The notes under the pieces are model-generated. The model did not search any database and was not told the DNA's origin. It worked only from the letters and a program-made list of their open reading frames with translations. A program made the translations under genes and the position numbers. A stretch of 34,809 nucleotides of DNA from positions 1,403 through 36,211 of the forward strand of contig PFUG01000658.1 of assembly GCA_002789955.1 (NCBI GenBank), read 5' to 3'. The DNA comes from Deltaproteobacteria bacterium CG_4_9_14_3_um_filter_63_12 (GTDB taxonomy: Bacteria > Myxococcota_A > Bradymonadia > UBA4248 > UM-FILTER-63-12). Positions 19,192 to 34,718 of this stretch are shown here, piece by piece; the stretch's first letter is position 1; each line of letters opens with the position of its first letter.

Positions 19192-20523
19192 CTATTTCTT
19201 CTCAGCGTGGGGCTGGAGCGCCTCGACTTTGGGGTGCTGAGGAATTTCCCCCTTTATTGCTGTGGGAATCGTCCGAGGGCGCTGAATCTGGGGCAGGTTG
19301 GACGCCGGCATTGGGTTGGCGTTCGGGGGCCGTTGGACCTGCACGCGGGCGCTGTAGATGACCTCGAGCTTCTCGGCATCACCCTTCTGATCGGTGAGGA
19401 TCCAGAGCGTGCTGTTCGCGACCTGCTTGCCTTCTGCCATCGTCATCGTGACCTGATAACGATCTCCCACCTTGTCGATCTTCGCTTGGACCATGTTCTG
19501 TGGGTCTTCGATGCCGGTGACCTTGAATTTGGTTCCCTTGATAGTGGAGACGAAGACGACGACATCGCGGGTCGATTTTCCGTTCTCATCAAAGAAGAAA
19601 TGAACCCGATCCTGATCCACGCTGATGTCGCTGGTGGCCCTTCCGTCGACACGGAGCTGGACCTCCTTGGGGGATTCGAGGTTGGTCTTCACGGTGAGCA
19701 GGCCGCCGAACCGGCGCGCCACATCGCCAGGCTTGATGGTGACCTCGAGGGTTGGCTCCTTCGCGCCTTTGACCATCTTCCCCGAGATGAGATTGGGATC
19801 GCTCGAGACCATCTCCACGACCTTCACTTCTTTGGCTTTGCTGCCGACGAGCTTGACCTGCTGGACTATGGTGTCACCCGTCATGACGTCGCCCATCGAG
19901 AGGCGCTCTGGGTCGAACCCTACGGCGACCTCGACGGTTCCTGAGATGTTGAGCTTGAAGGCAGGGTTGACGGGATCGTCAGAGCTGACGGTGACGGTCT
20001 TGGCGAGGACGCCGTGCCGACCTGCAGTGTGAACAGTGACTTCGATTTTGGCTTCTGCACCTGGGGCTACAATTGGCTCGCTGACCACGGCCGCTGTGCA
20101 CCCTCAGCCACCATCGGCGCGACTGATGGTCAAGGGTCCTAGGCCCGAGTTCTTGACCACGAATGTGTGTTTGACGTCGTCGCCTTGAGCGACGGTGCCA
20201 TAGTCGAACGACGGCGCGTCACAGCCGATCGCCGGAGCGGGCCCTGCAGGTTTGGACTCCTCGACAACCGGTTTGGCGACCTTCGGATCGACACCAGCAA
20301 CCCTGCGGAGCTGTTCGAGCTTGGCCTTCGGCGGCCGAGTCTTGGGCTCTGGAACAAGGTCCTTTGCCACTTGTGGCGCCTCGTCAGCCTCGCAGACGGG
20401 GATGGCCTCTTCGCCCTCCTTCTGAGAAGCTCCCTCGCCTTCCTCCTTTTCGTGCTCAGCACGCTGCGGTAAGCAGCCGCCAAGCAGGAGGATCAGCAGG
20501 GCGATGAAAGGGAAACGTCTCAT
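19192..20523 (-). CDS. DUF1573/ASPM-SPD2-HYDIN-like lipoprotein with an in-frame UGA (candidate selenoprotein)
   Basis: ORFs 20104-20523 and 19192-20088 are in the same frame and separated only by TGA (20106-20104) plus 5 sense codons. Joined reading: FDYGTVAQGDDVKHTFVVKNSGLGPLTISRADGG[UGA]GCTAAVVSEPIVAPGAEAKIEVTVHTAGRHGVLAKTVTVSSDDPVNPAFKLNISGTV. Lipobox LLILLLGGC. Confidence 0.75.
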
Positions 20524-20636
20524 ACCTCTTCTCCCAGTTTGCGCGTGAGCGTATTGCGGCGCTCCGATGCTTCGGAGCGCCGCGTCAGAACAACATGCTC
20601 ATATCGCATTTTTTGGCCGTTGCCAAACCCACGTTT

Positions 20637-23600
20637 TCAGCCGCGCGGGGCACCAAGGCTTTCGCTCCCTTCGAAGCGCTCGACGTCGTAGACGCGGTGG
20701 CACAGGTAGCGACCCAAAGAGCGGATGGCCTGGTCGGCCGAGCGAAATACGGGGACTCCGCGCGAGCGTATGGCGCGGGCCAGCGGATCGTATAGGCTTC
20801 CGGAGTCGACCACGACGATGATCGGCTTCTTCGATTGGTGGAAGAGCCGCGGCAGCCGCTCGACGAGCGAGCCCGTTTCTCCAATCTCATCAGGTGTGGT
20901 CTCGAGGGCCGCTGTCAGGGGCACCACTCCGACAACGAGGGCATGGATTTCCGGGCTGTCCAGCATGACGCGGATCGCGCCTTCATAGGCGTCTTCGTTG
21001 GCCATGGGCGTCAGATCCAGGGGATTGCGAGGGTTCACAAGGGCCCCGAGGCCCTGCTGCGTGAGCAGCTGCGCGAGTCGCGCCGTCGGCACGCCCGAGA
21101 GCTCCACCATGTCCACCTTGTAGCGGTGTCCTCGGATGGCATCCGCCATCCCGACGGTCTCGAAGCCCGCATTGGAGATGGCGCCGACGTGCACGCCTGC
21201 GACGTCCTTGCAGTGCAGCGCCGTACACAGCTCCATGAGCTGCTCGAACTCCTTGAAGGTGTCCGTGACGATCGCTCCCGCCTGCCCAGCCGCGGACTGG
21301 CAGACGTCGTAGTCGCCCGCGACCGCCGCCGTGTGCCCAGCGGCCGCGCTGCGCCCCTGCTCGGTGCGCCCTGCCTTGTAGAAGACGATGTCCTTGCCGG
21401 CCTCGCTGAGGGTGCGGATCGTCTGGATGCTCACCAGTCCGTCGAGATCGTTGAAACCTTCGGCGTAGAGACCGATGACATCGATGTCGTCACGGCGCCC
21501 GATGGCCATCATGACGTCGGACGGAGTCAGGTCGAGCTGGTTGCCAATGGACACCGCGAACGCCGGATCCAACGTCTCCAGGTTGCTCAAGCGGCTGACG
21601 ATGAACGCGCCGCTCTGAGAGAGCAGCGCCGCGCGACGCGCCGGTTTTGCCCAACGCTTGTCCAGCTTGCCGCTGGGGATGAAGAAGGTGTCGTAGTGGC
21701 CAGGCCGCGAGATGACGCCGAGGCTGTTCGGCCCCAGGAAGACCGTGCGACGCCCTTCCCGCCGCCCCTCCGCAATCGCCGCCCGCACCTCCTCCTTGAT
21801 GTCCTCCGAGCCCTCTGTCTCGCCGACCCCACCAGAAATCAAGATGACCGCCCCTACATCCGCCGCCCACGCCTCGCGGACCAAGGCCGGAAGCTGCTTT
21901 GCGGCCGCCGCGATGACCAGCAGGTCGAGGGGCTCTGGCGCTTCGCTCAACGTGGCGATGCAGCGCGCTCCATCCAGGGTTTCTTGTCCGGCCTTGACGG
22001 CGTAGAGCCGCTCTCGGGGGAAGCCGGAATCGAGCACATTGTTGAGGATGATGCGGCCGAAGTTCATGGCCGTCGCCGAGGCGCCGAGCACCCCGATGGA
22101 ACGCGGCTCGAGCAAGGCTTCGACGGCCGCGACCGGGCGCGCGGGCGTGCCAAGGGCGACCGGAAACAGGGTCCCTCGCCCGTCGAGGGGGATCATCCGC
22201 TGTTGCCTGAACGCAAACGGGTTGACCTCGAGCTCGGCGACGTCCGGGCCACCCTCCCCTCTGGCCACACAGAAGCGCTGCGCCAAGAGGATAAAGGCCC
22301 GGAAGCAGCGCAGGAGCTCGCCGTCGGAAACCTCGCGGCGGCGACCGCGGGCGCGGCCCGAAAGGATGTCGTAGGCCGCAGTCTTCTTGAAGAGCTCGAG
22401 GAACTCCTCGGCCGTCGTGTCCGTAGCCAGAGCTTTTGCGACGGCGATGCCTGGGAGCATCTTGCGGGCGAGGTACTCCGTATCGATGCCGCCTAGACCA
22501 GCGGCGATGACGGGACCAAATTCTCGCGTCGCCCGAATCCCAAGAAACAGCTCGTTGCCGAAGCCCGGCTGGGTTCGTTCGACAAACTCGACGACCAGCA
22601 CTCCGCGCACATCGGCCGTCTCGCGATGGCGCTCGATGAGCCGGTCGATCTCCTCGCGCACCGAGTCGTAGTCCTTGCGGACGAAGACGATGCCGTTGGC
22701 GTCGCTCTTGTGCACGACGTCCGGCGAGACCAGCTTGACGACGACTCGCTCGCCGGGGAACTGGGCCAGGGCGTCCTCGGAGATGAGCTCGTCCATGCTG
22801 AGGAAGATGTGGTGCGGGGGCGAGATCGCGCCGATCAGCTGCACGATGGTGTAGACCTCGTGCTCGAAGAGCTGGGTGCGGCCTTCTTCGTAGACGTTGC
22901 GGAGGGCGCGCTCGACGGCGTGGACTTCGGCGCCGGAGAGCTTGTCCTGCATGTGGACGACGTCGATGACGGGCATATCAGGTCGCTCCGGTTCGGCCAG
23001 GTGCTCGGTGGGGAGGGTCTCGAGCCAGTGTCTGACGGTTCTGGAGGTGGCGCCTCGCTCCAGGCCGTCGAGGTAGGCCATGGCGGCGTTGCGGCCGAAG
23101 CGAAAGGCCCGCTGGTTGACCTCGACGACGTTCTCGCCTTTGTCCTCGAAGAGGGCGGAGACGGCGTCCTCGAGGTCCTGGGGGTCGAGGGCGAGGTGCA
23201 GCGAGGCGGCGCCGAGGACGGCCATGTTGGAGGCGCGACCAGACCCCGCTGCGCGGGCGATGAGCTCGCCGTCGATGAGGATGTGACGGCGATGGGCCGA
23301 GACACGGTCGAGGACCGTCTCGATGGGGGGATAGTTGCCGATGTTGACGAAAGCGTTGAGGCTGCTGACCAGCGCGCCCTGCTCGGCGAGGTAATGGACG
23401 TAGCGCAGCGACTCGAGCGGCTCGACTGCGATGATGAGGTCGACGTGGCCGACCTGGATTAGGTCGCTGAAGATCTCGTGGCTAGCGATGCGCAGGTGGG
23501 ACTGAACGCCCCCGCCGCGCTGGCTCATGCCGTGGACTTCCGCCTGCTTGATGTGCAGACCTCGGCGCAGGGCGGCCTTGGAGATGGCTTGTGCGATGGT

Positions 23601-23648
23601 GAGGATGCCTTGGCCCCCAACTCCTGCGAGGATCAGATTCTGTTCCAT
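20637..23648 (-). CDS. Indolepyruvate oxidoreductase beta subunit fused to NDP-forming acyl-CoA synthetase (ATP-grasp then CoA-binding/ligase domains)
   Basis: IorB: MEQNLILAGVGGQGILTIAQAISKAALRRGLHIKQAEVHGMSQRGGGVQSHLRI. ATP-grasp: VVVKLVSPDVVHKSDANGIVFV. CoA-binding: LLEPRSIGVLGASATAMNFGRIILNNVL. Phospho-His loop: GRSAAAGHTAAVAGDYDV. Confidence 0.9.
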   Translation of the reverse strand: MEQNLILAGVGGQGILTIAQAISKAALRRGLHIKQAEVHGMSQRGGGVQSHLRIASHEIFSDLIQVGHVDLIIAVEPLESLRYVHYLAEQGALVSSLNAFVNIGNYPPIETVLDRVSAHRRHILIDGELIARAAGSGRASNMAVLGAASLHLALDPQDLEDAVSALFEDKGENVVEVNQRAFRFGRNAAMAYLDGLERGATSRTVRHWLETLPTEHLAEPERPDMPVIDVVHMQDKLSGAEVHAVERALRNVYEEGRTQLFEHEVYTIVQLIGAISPPHHIFLSMDELISEDALAQFPGERVVVKLVSPDVVHKSDANGIVFVRKDYDSVREEIDRLIERHRETADVRGVLVVEFVERTQPGFGNELFLGIRATREFGPVIAAGLGGIDTEYLARKMLPGIAVAKALATDTTAEEFLELFKKTAAYDILSGRARGRRREVSDGELLRCFRAFILLAQRFCVARGEGGPDVAELEVNPFAFRQQRMIPLDGRGTLFPVALGTPARPVAAVEALLEPRSIGVLGASATAMNFGRIILNNVLDSGFPRERLYAVKAGQETLDGARCIATLSEAPEPLDLLVIAAAAKQLPALVREAWAADVGAVILISGGVGETEGSEDIKEEVRAAIAEGRREGRRTVFLGPNSLGVISRPGHYDTFFIPSGKLDKRWAKPARRAALLSQSGAFIVSRLSNLETLDPAFAVSIGNQLDLTPSDVMMAIGRRDDIDVIGLYAEGFNDLDGLVSIQTIRTLSEAGKDIVFYKAGRTEQGRSAAAGHTAAVAGDYDVCQSAAGQAGAIVTDTFKEFEQLMELCTALHCKDVAGVHVGAISNAGFETVGMADAIRGHRYKVDMVELSGVPTARLAQLLTQQGLGALVNPRNPLDLTPMANEDAYEGAIRVMLDSPEIHALVVGVVPLTAALETTPDEIGETGSLVERLPRLFHQSKKPIIVVVDSGSLYDPLARAIRSRGVPVFRSADQAIRSLGRYLCHRVYDVERFEGSESLGAPRG

Positions 23649-23779: not shown

Positions 23780-25396
23780 TCAGGAGGCCGCTTGCAGCTT
23801 GGCCGCGAGCTTTTCTCTTCGCGCGCTGTGGATGCAGGCCCGTTGGGGGATCACGACGCTCAAACCTGGGTAGGCAATTTCGCGCCGGATGGCCTCGACG
23901 TTGTCCTTGTGCGCCTTGGCCACGGGGTTGAGGACGATGGTGTGCTCCGGGTCGACCCCAAGACCGCGCAGAACGTCGAGGAGCTGCTCTCCCGAGGTCA
24001 TGGTGAGCTGGCCGCCGGTCATGGCGACGGTGGCGTTGTCGAGGATGAGCACGGTCATGTTGGCGTTCTGTCGCGCGGCGGAGATGAGGCCGGTCATGCC
24101 GGAGTGCGCGAAGGTGCCGTCGCCGATGGTGCAGACAACCGGATGTTTGCCGGCCCTCGAGGCGCCGAGCGCCATGGAGATGGAGGCGCCCATGTCGAGG
24201 CAGGCGTGTACGGCCCGAAAGGGCGGCAACACGCCCAAGGTGTAGCAACCGATGTCGGAGAAGAGGACGGGGTCTTCGTAGATGGAGGTCGCTTCGACCA
24301 AGGCGCGGAAGCTGTCGGAGTGGGGGCAGCCGCGGCAGAGCTGCGGCGGACGCGCAGCGAGGTCGGTCAGTGGCAGGCCGGACTGGGTGCGAGGTCGGCC
24401 TAGGGCCTGGGCGAGCGCGTCTGGACTGAGCTCACCGGTGGAAGGCAAATCGCCGGTCAGCTTGCCTCGGATGGCCTTGCCTGGGATGCCGAGGAGGCCT
24501 TGCAGGCGGCGTTCGATGAAGGGGTAGCCCTCTTCGACGACCAAGATCTCATCGCAATGATTGACGAGCTCGCGGATCAGGGTGACGGGCAGCGGATAGA
24601 GGCCGACGTGCAGCAGGGAGACGTCTGCGTTGCCGTTGAGGGCCTCGCGCACGTAGTTGTAGGCGAGACCAGCGCAGAGGACGCCGCGGCTGCTGCCGAG
24701 GGTGAGCTTGTTGAAGGAGGAGCGCTGCGAGCGCTCGACGAGCTCGGGCTGGAGGTCGACCAGCTGTTGGAACTTGCGACGCGCGTTGACCGGAACGAGG
24801 GTCCAGTCGTTGGGGTTGGGTCGGCGTACGTCGGCGGCGGAGCGGGTGATGAGCTCGCGCGTCTCGACGTTGGCACGGCTGTGGCACAGGCGAGTGACGA
24901 GGCGCATCATGACGGGGAGACCGATGGCCTCTGAGGTCTGGAAGGCCTCGCGAGTCATCTCGTAGGCTTCTTGCTGATTGGCGGGCTCGTACATGGGGAG
25001 CTTGGCGAAATCGCCATAGAAGCGGCTGTCTTGCTCGTTCTGCGAGGAGTGCATGCCCGGATCGTCGGCGATGACGACCACCATGCCAGCGTTCACGCCG
25101 GTCAGCGCGGAGTTCATGAAGGGGTCGGCGGCGACGTTGAGGCCGACGTGCTTCATGGAGACCAAGGCGCGCTTGCCCACATAAGACATGCCCAGCGCTT
25201 CCTCGTAGGCCGTCTTCTCGTTGGTGGACCAGATGGCAGAGATGCCCGGTCTTTCGGCCCTGTTTGCGGCCCTACTACGGATGTACTCGAAGATCTCGGT
25301 GGCGGGGGTTCCGGGATAGGAGAAGGCCCCGCCTATCCCCTCATCGATGGCACCCCGTGCCACAGCCTCATCTCCCAACAACAGTTCAGCGCTCAT
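23780..25396 (-). CDS. iorA: Indolepyruvate oxidoreductase alpha subunit lacking C-terminal ferredoxin domain
   Basis: MSAELLLGDEAVARGAIDEGIGGAFSYPGTPATEI; LCRGCPHSDSFRAL; TPP motif IGDGTFAHSGMTGLISAARQNANMTVLILDN. Ends VVIPQRACIHSARREKLAAKLQAAS with no CxxCxxC. Confidence 0.92.
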   Translation of the reverse strand: MSAELLLGDEAVARGAIDEGIGGAFSYPGTPATEIFEYIRSRAANRAERPGISAIWSTNEKTAYEEALGMSYVGKRALVSMKHVGLNVAADPFMNSALTGVNAGMVVVIADDPGMHSSQNEQDSRFYGDFAKLPMYEPANQQEAYEMTREAFQTSEAIGLPVMMRLVTRLCHSRANVETRELITRSAADVRRPNPNDWTLVPVNARRKFQQLVDLQPELVERSQRSSFNKLTLGSSRGVLCAGLAYNYVREALNGNADVSLLHVGLYPLPVTLIRELVNHCDEILVVEEGYPFIERRLQGLLGIPGKAIRGKLTGDLPSTGELSPDALAQALGRPRTQSGLPLTDLAARPPQLCRGCPHSDSFRALVEATSIYEDPVLFSDIGCYTLGVLPPFRAVHACLDMGASISMALGASRAGKHPVVCTIGDGTFAHSGMTGLISAARQNANMTVLILDNATVAMTGGQLTMTSGEQLLDVLRGLGVDPEHTIVLNPVAKAHKDNVEAIRREIAYPGLSVVIPQRACIHSARREKLAAKLQAAS

Positions 25397-25582
25397 TTGC
25401 CACTCCATTGCATTTGTTTGCCACTCCCGCGGGCCTTGGGCCAGCGGGGTTGAGCACAGCGCGAGACCTCTATTTCGGCACTCGAATCGGTGGTCTCTGA
25501 GCTCGGCATCTCGTCCGTCAGGGGCGCCAGACTGCGAACTCAGACGAGATGGGGGTGTTGGACACCCGGCGAGGAATCCTTA

Positions 25583-33754: not shown

Positions 33755-34540
33755 ATGTCAAGCCGACGACGCAGTTTTGAGAATGCAGTGCTAATCAGTG
33801 TTTTCGCAGTGGTCTTGGGCCTCGGCTCGAGTGCGCTGGCGGCTGGCCCGGAGAAGGGCTTGGCGACGGCCCAAAGCGGCTCGGAGAAGGGCTTGGCGAC
33901 GGCCCAAAGCGGCTCGGCATCGAAGGCGAGCTCCTCGAAGACCTTCAAGCGCGCCGACAACAAGACCGTGAGCATCACTCGCCTCGATTCCAGCCCCACA
34001 CCCACGCGGCGCGGCCTTGACGCACAGGTCGCCACCGAGCTCTCCGACGAAGAGCTGCTCGAGATGCACGACGGCTCCTTCTACCTCGACGTCTGGAGTT
34101 CGGACACGGCCGAAGCGAACTTGGCGCTGCGTTTCGGCGGCGGCCACACCTACACTTTCCTGGCCGCAGGGACCGACCTGAGCGTCGCGGAGCCCGGCGA
34201 AGACCGCCGCTACGAGGTCGGCGCTGGCGCGGGCATCCGCGGCTTCATCGACGAGGCGTTCATCGACTTCGACCTCTCTCTGTACGTGCTTCTGGACCAA
34301 GGCGGTTCCCCGCTCGAGGCCGGCATGGCGAAGATTCGATTGGGTGTGGGCAGCCGCTTCTCGAGGTACTTCGCCGTCTCGGCAGGCATGACCGCGACGC
34401 TCTTTGGCGACCTCGACATTCCCACGCAGGACACCACGGTCGCGCACCCCACCTACGTGCAAGCCGTCACGTACCTCGACGTCGAGGCACCCCTGCGCTT
34501 GGCGCTGTGGCCCGGCTTCTATGCCGGCATGGAGTTCTGA
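33755..34540 (+). CDS. Exported hypothetical protein, possibly outer-membrane beta-barrel
   Basis: Signal peptide RRRSFENAVLISVFAVVLGLGSSALAA; alternating strands such as YEVGAGAGIRGFIDEAFIDFDLSLYVLL and ALWPGFYAGMEF with terminal Phe. RBS ggaggtcgaaggtc-ATG. Confidence 0.75.
   Translation: MSSRRRSFENAVLISVFAVVLGLGSSALAAGPEKGLATAQSGSEKGLATAQSGSASKASSSKTFKRADNKTVSITRLDSSPTPTRRGLDAQVATELSDEELLEMHDGSFYLDVWSSDTAEANLALRFGGGHTYTFLAAGTDLSVAEPGEDRRYEVGAGAGIRGFIDEAFIDFDLSLYVLLDQGGSPLEAGMAKIRLGVGSRFSRYFAVSAGMTATLFGDLDIPTQDTTVAHPTYVQAVTYLDVEAPLRLALWPGFYAGMEF
33851..33916 (+). repeat. Perfect 33-bp tandem duplication inside the 33755 CDS
   Basis: GAGAAGGGCTTGGCGACGGCCCAAAGCGGCTCG twice (EKGLATAQSGS x2). 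Confidence 0.95.
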
Positions 34541-34553
34541 GGTTCGAGCGGTC

Positions 34554-34718
34554 GAACCGCGTCCGGCCGCATGAACCCACCACGGCGAACCGCGTCCGGC
34601 CGCTCGAACCCACCACGGCGAACCGCGTCCGGCCGCTCGAACCCACGACGGCGAACCGCGTCCGGCCGCCCGAACCCACCACGGCGAACCGCGTCCGGCC
34701 GCCCGAACCCACGACCCC
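34554..34718. repeat. 33-bp minisatellite, five copies
   Basis: GAACCGCGTCCGGCCGCNYGAACCCACSACGGC at 34554, 34587, 34620, 34653 and 34686 with no spacers. Confidence 0.95.

Follow-up and report, generated by a model that had tools for sequence, protein, structure and literature searches.

A DUF1573 lipoprotein gene of a Myxococcota bacterium very probably encodes a divergent selenoprotein with an in-frame UGA at a conserved Cys position

Interrupted frame and domain layout

The analyzed stretch of DNA (the window) covers 34,809 nucleotides of an 8.3 Mb assembly in 689 contigs (G000). On its minus strand, a 139-codon open reading frame with ATG at 20523 ends at a TGA (20106-20104), and the same frame continues for 303 stop-free codons to a TAG at 19194-19192 (Table 1). 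A sequence-only reading of this DNA had described two ORFs in one frame parted by this TGA alone and about 300 intact codons downstream of it; both observations were confirmed. With the UGA read through, the joined protein comprises 443 residues. DUF1573 (PF07610) scores 79 bits over residues 102-197, where the curated cut-off, a criterion for the published UxC family, is 26.1, and because this match runs across the UGA, a single domain spans the apparent stop. No other DUF1573 match occurs in the assembly. In an alignment with Cys homologues, the UGA-encoded residue 140 falls on the invariant first Cys of the C-G/S-C-T motif, the position at which the sequence-only reading had placed it. Like published DUF1573 selenoproteins, the predicted protein has a U-x-C pair (U140-G-C142) with the in-frame UGA opposite Cys.

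Table 1. Features of the DUF1573 locus and its surroundings in the window
Feature	Position	Strand	Evidence or remark
Selenoprotein gene (predicted), DUF1573 lipoprotein, 443 residues with Sec at 140	19192..20523	-	Single TGA breaks frame; PF07610 across TGA
UGA as putative selenocysteine codon (Sec140), position one of U-G-C-T	20104..20106	-	TGA in 15 other Myxococcota genomes, otherwise Cys
DUF1573 (PF07610), Ig-like, residues 102-197	19933..20220	-	79 bits, cut-off 26.1; confident structure model
Ig-like domains 2 and 3, approximately residues 198-400	19300..19932	-	AlphaFold2 model; approximate boundaries
Putative lipoprotein signal peptide MRRFPFIALLILLLGGC, lipobox LGGC, anchor Cys17	20473..20523	-	Recognized by eye
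Ribosome-binding-like stretch GGGAGAAGAGG	20525..20535	-	Directly 5' of ATG; recognized by eye
Candidate proximal SECIS hairpin, GGCCGU-GGUCA-GCG(A)GCC	20075..20092	-	Conforms to bSECIS model
POR-gamma fused to acyl-CoA synthetase-type domains	20637..23648	-	ATP-grasp_5, Succ_CoA_lig, CoA_binding_2
POR_N/TPP-enzyme gene	23780..25408	-	Adjoins the fusion gene; resembles indolepyruvate oxidoreductase alpha
33-bp tandem repeats, 4.8 copies	34553..34712
33-bp tandem repeats, 2.2 copies	33845..33917

Selenocysteine genes of the genome

The sequence-only reading had proposed a search for the Sec machinery, and all of its components are present in the assembly, each above its cut-off: tRNA-Sec (selC, 69.3 bits, cut-off 47; called likewise by ARAGORN and Rfam), SelB (320 bits, cut-off 242), SelA (490 bits), and SelD (355 bits). 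The SelD gene (L056, G000:C13) and an FdhA gene (L203, G000:C101) each contain one in-frame TGA (..TCG-U-AAKIGP.. and ..HQCAAT-U-HAPTVAG.., respectively). Therefore, the organism possesses the Sec genes together with at least two classical selenoprotein genes.

Distribution of the UGA and Cys forms

A search for orthologues across 387 genomes from the phylum revealed homologues with an in-frame TGA in 15 other genomes (~24-40% identity), always at the column of the window's TGA. Among these, the homologue of Myxococcota bacterium Modern_marine.mb.298 (L075) is the same gene as that of G017. The other interruptions among the phylum homologues were one TAG near the C-terminal end and, in a different homologue, one terminal TGA. 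Since all 15 further in-frame TGAs fall at one column, chance is excluded; the sequence-only reading had argued that a random nonsense mutation would hardly hit this residue.

A nonsense mutation, a pseudogene or an assembly error, with Cys as the true codon or the gene dead, would be compatible with the fragmented assembly and with the ordinary folding energy of the hairpin that follows the UGA in the window. Nevertheless, homology and the open frame persist for 300 codons past the TGA, the sel set of the genome is complete, and the 15 TGA-bearing genomes have to be accounted for. Because genomes assembled independently of one another have the UGA at this same column, a sequencing or assembly error appears very unlikely, and we give this explanation as a whole very little credence. 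A 298-codon ORF does start at GTG 20088, so that the UGA could be a true stop separating a short lipoprotein from a restarted second product. However, this break would split the DUF1573 domain and leave a second part in which no signal peptide was recognized by eye, and homologues have Cys in place of the UGA but never TAA or TAG at this column, making two products scarcely believable.

The Cys-aligned homologues that the sequence-only reading had asked for were also found, with C-G/S-C-T at the site (e.g. L033, L030, and L019). Among the Myxococcota genomes, selA was detected above the cut-off in 14 of 16 with the UGA form versus one of nine with the Cys form (Fisher p = 0.0003). With regard to the two UGA-form exceptions, selA was not found in the genome G065 and is represented by a fragment of only 89 positions in G259, while G098 has a distant Cys-type DUF1573 yet carries selA. 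The same division was observed within one genus (g61), where G083 has UGA and selA, whereas G110 and G217 have CSC and lack selA. The choice between Sec and Cys is tied to whether the Sec machinery is present, even within a genus. Decoding of UGA as an ordinary amino acid by a suppressor or an altered genetic code would explain the open frame equally well, but it is barely tenable given that SelD and FdhA, the other genes of the genome in which an interrupting UGA was seen, are classical selenoproteins and that selA presence follows the UGA form.

On its well-supported branches, the phylogenetic tree requires no fewer than three changes between Sec and Cys; the attachment point of the window gene is not fixed by it. 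The DNA of a contig collection was scanned with the pattern N-x-G-x3-L-x-I-x6-UGA-G-C-T, yielding at least 119 loci with at least 122 instances, and nearly all of those listed have long open frames on both sides. The listed matches include Desulfobacterota, Nitrospirota, Zixibacteria, Acidobacteria, Planctomycetota, Spirochaetes, Bacteroidetes, and others; one carrier of the gene, Desulfoluna butyratoxydans (L073), is cultivable. A scan of the same collection with the window protein alone gave no match, and a plasmid search gave only two, both weak and partial. In one zixibacterial locus (L070), three DUF1573 genes follow in succession, and in all three an in-frame TGA occupies the Sec position.

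Candidate SECIS hairpins

Bacterial SECIS elements have been modelled with an apical loop of 3-9 nt containing G in its first two positions, a stem of 4-16 bp, a spacing of 16-37 nt, and a minimum free energy of at most -7.5 (PMC13188914). The proximal hairpin of the window agrees with this model through six pairs with one bulged A and a GGUCA loop (20086-20082) spaced 17 nt 3' of the UGA, and it reaches the energy threshold only via a longer fold (-17.5 kcal/mol for 51 nt, -6.3 kcal/mol for the bare hairpin). Its pair probability is 0.98-1.0 in a 42-nt context and only 0.35-0.57 in shorter contexts. Of the SECIS-like folds suggested previously, neither is favoured as drawn; a candidate hairpin is nevertheless present after the UGA, and the second suggestion overlaps it. 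SECIS elements of the E. coli fdhF type have a small apical loop starting with GGUC about 17 nt past the UGA. The window hairpin resembles this type in its GGUC start and ~17-nt spacing and differs in the stem, which contains a bulged A on its 3' strand.

By energy alone, the window hairpin is unremarkable; such energy-only tests carry no information in GC-rich DNA. A loose G-loop criterion is satisfied by approximately 20% of TGAs. The GGUC loop is common to the DUF1573 gene (GGUCA, 17 nt), FdhA (GGUCU, 18 nt), and SelD (GGUCCU, 20 nt) of the genome, with the GGUC fold of SelD being a minority conformer. With the criterion sharpened in this way after the loop had been seen, a hairpin of the same stability with a GGUC loop at this spacing follows 3 of 2203 TGAs in sequence of this genome (the Sec UGA counted) and is reached by 0.75% of synonymous recodings of the window gene. 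Taken over 130 Sec genes, the proximal hairpin is more stable than in synonymous recodings, with a mean z of -2.35 and p ≤ 0.05 in 57% of cases; in 11 Cys genes, it does not rise above them (z +0.29). Stem pairing also exceeded that in column shuffles in the Desulfobacterota-type set (68% versus 56%), the remaining mixed set with many Nitrospirota (63% versus 45%), and the Myxococcota set (82% versus 69%).

A different hairpin was found about 40 nt after the UGA in 14 Myxococcota Sec orthologues (L018, L029, L031, L032, L034, L035, L037-L039, and L043-L047), where the sequence reads TT-CCC-CCG-GGN-GGG-GAA. The codons CCC, GGG, and GAA are each present in all 14 of these genes and CCG in 13, although the genes are related and do not represent 14 independent observations; in the same genes, the share of these codons within their families is 25-44%. 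The codon preceding CCC always has T as the third base, and the Gly codon that follows is free to vary. By energy, the distal hairpin stands out only weakly from synonymous recodings (mean z -0.97) since codons for Pro and Gly are inherently complementary, and codon identity is the better test. At the same place, Zixibacteria have GCUGUC-GGU-GACAGC, encoded from different amino acids, and SelD genes from several of the same genomes carry GG-type loops (GGGAC, GGUCG, and CGGUG). This pattern suggests that the distal GG-loop hairpin is a putative SelB-binding element in those lineages. Its form (UUCCCC-CGGGY-GGGGAA, ~40 nt) lies outside the 16-37 nt of the model. The window gene lacks the distal hairpin and has ATTGTAGCCCCAGGTGCAGAAGCC there, so that it would depend on the proximal GGUC loop instead.

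No description of the distal hairpin was found in open papers, and its strong synonymous constraint in the 14 orthologues and its absence from the window are new as far as searched. We propose that DUF1573 mRNAs have a two-hairpin Sec element, proximal (~17-21 nt) and distal (~40 nt), with lineages differing in which of the two they rely on and the window lineage using, in place of a distal hairpin, the GGUC loop shared by its selenoprotein genes; the considerations for and against this model are evenly balanced. It would make the family a case of SECIS change while the protein site stays fixed. The Cys-form genes L033 and L036 (G110 and G217, both without selA) partly retain the distal GC-rich codon pattern, possibly as a relic of a Sec ancestor.

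Relationship to known DUF1573 selenoproteins

The sequence-only reading knew of no described DUF1573 selenoprotein, but such proteins are already on record. A 2008 table of the marine selenoproteome has an entry OS_HP2 (pfam07610, UxC) with two Sec sequences (PMC2398784), a 'DUF1573 domain-containing protein, UGC' is named in two reviews (PMC9312934, PMC13188914), and NCBIfam NF041425 (OS_HP2_seleno) models the family. The window protein shares the Pfam domain and the U-G-C position with the OS_HP2 selenoproteins. It differs in being longer (three Ig-like domains), in its origin from Myxococcota, and in scoring 85.4 bits (E 2.6e-24) against NF041425. Because this score is below the cut-off of 100, the protein is a divergent relative that is not filed under this model; among its Myxococcota orthologues, L018 (100.9) and L038 (101.2) pass and L045 (89.1) fails. 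The Cys-form proteins (L033, L030, and L019) have the same domain and C-G/S-C-T at the aligned column, but differ in having Cys for Sec, mostly no selA, and no selected hairpin after the codon.

What computation shows is a conserved reading frame, a complete Sec machinery, a candidate SECIS, and an association of Sec and Cys forms with selA. We conclude that this apparent stop-interrupted 'pseudogene' is very probably a real selenoprotein gene encoding a divergent DUF1573 protein of the OS_HP2 type (UxC) with Sec at the UGA. The selenocysteine proposed from the letters alone was thereby upheld by the sel genes, the TGA-bearing orthologues, and the Cys-aligned homologues. No report of DUF1573-type selenoproteins in Myxococcota or Myxococcales was found in open papers. 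The family, for which the 2008 marine survey listed two Sec sequences, now extends to many phyla, and this wide spread (at least 122 pattern-matched instances) and the repeated Sec/Cys switching are, as far as searched, new.

Predicted structure and possible role

In the proposed mechanism, SelB-GTP-Sec-tRNA would bind the hairpin 17 nt past the UGA via its GGUCA loop, and the bound complex would lead to insertion of Sec140; otherwise, termination would leave a 139-residue fragment. The full-length predicted lipoprotein would be exported and lipid-anchored at Cys17, displaying three Ig-like domains. The AlphaFold2 model (mean pLDDT 80, ~95 over residues 100-400) consists of Ig-like beta domains, in line with the Ig-like repeats anticipated downstream of the TGA, with pLDDT values of ~85-97 per ten-residue block in domains 2 and 3. 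It places Sec140 in a first-domain loop between strands 131-138 and 143-147. When the fold was searched, the matches were all generic Ig-type structures (ciliary central-pair proteins, titin, and cadherins) at low TM-scores, so the fold indicates no function. Searches of the PDB gave no match with the single sequence and two weak matches with a profile.

Sec140-Gly-Cys142 would most likely act as a selenol/thiol redox pair, forming a selenenylsulfide or exchanging with extracytoplasmic dithiols. Because of the U-x-C pair and the probable lipid anchor, an extracytoplasmic redox role is our best guess, one that we think has about an even chance of being correct. Genes neighbouring 14 related loci code for thioredoxin (Trx), DsbD_TM (CcdA-like), rhodanese, MauE, or ArsP_1 permease; the loci with redox-type neighbours belong to other phyla and not to the window. 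A further role, compatible with Sec insertion, would be binding of soft metals by U-G-C. ArsP_1-type permease genes adjoin the Sec gene in five loci, and an Ig-like scaffold bearing a U-x-C pair could form a metal site, but the Trx, DsbD_TM, rhodanese, and MauE neighbours indicate thiol redox chemistry, most selenoproteins with an assigned function are oxidoreductases (PMC2398784), and no metal gene was noticed around the copy in the window. We therefore consider metal binding possible but rather unlikely. This probable extracytoplasmic selenoprotein is a candidate for biochemistry.

The neighbours of the gene in the window, which include a POR/acyl-CoA synthetase fusion, a POR_N/TPP enzyme, and an HtrA-like protease, give no direct clue to the role. 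A Sec-DUF1573 protein from Nitrospirota (L102:2893-3573, plus strand) extends into a CxxCH-motif stretch with weak matches to cytochrome-c families. The two 33-bp tandem arrays elsewhere in the window show ~96-97% matches inside each array, and their unit length is a multiple of three.
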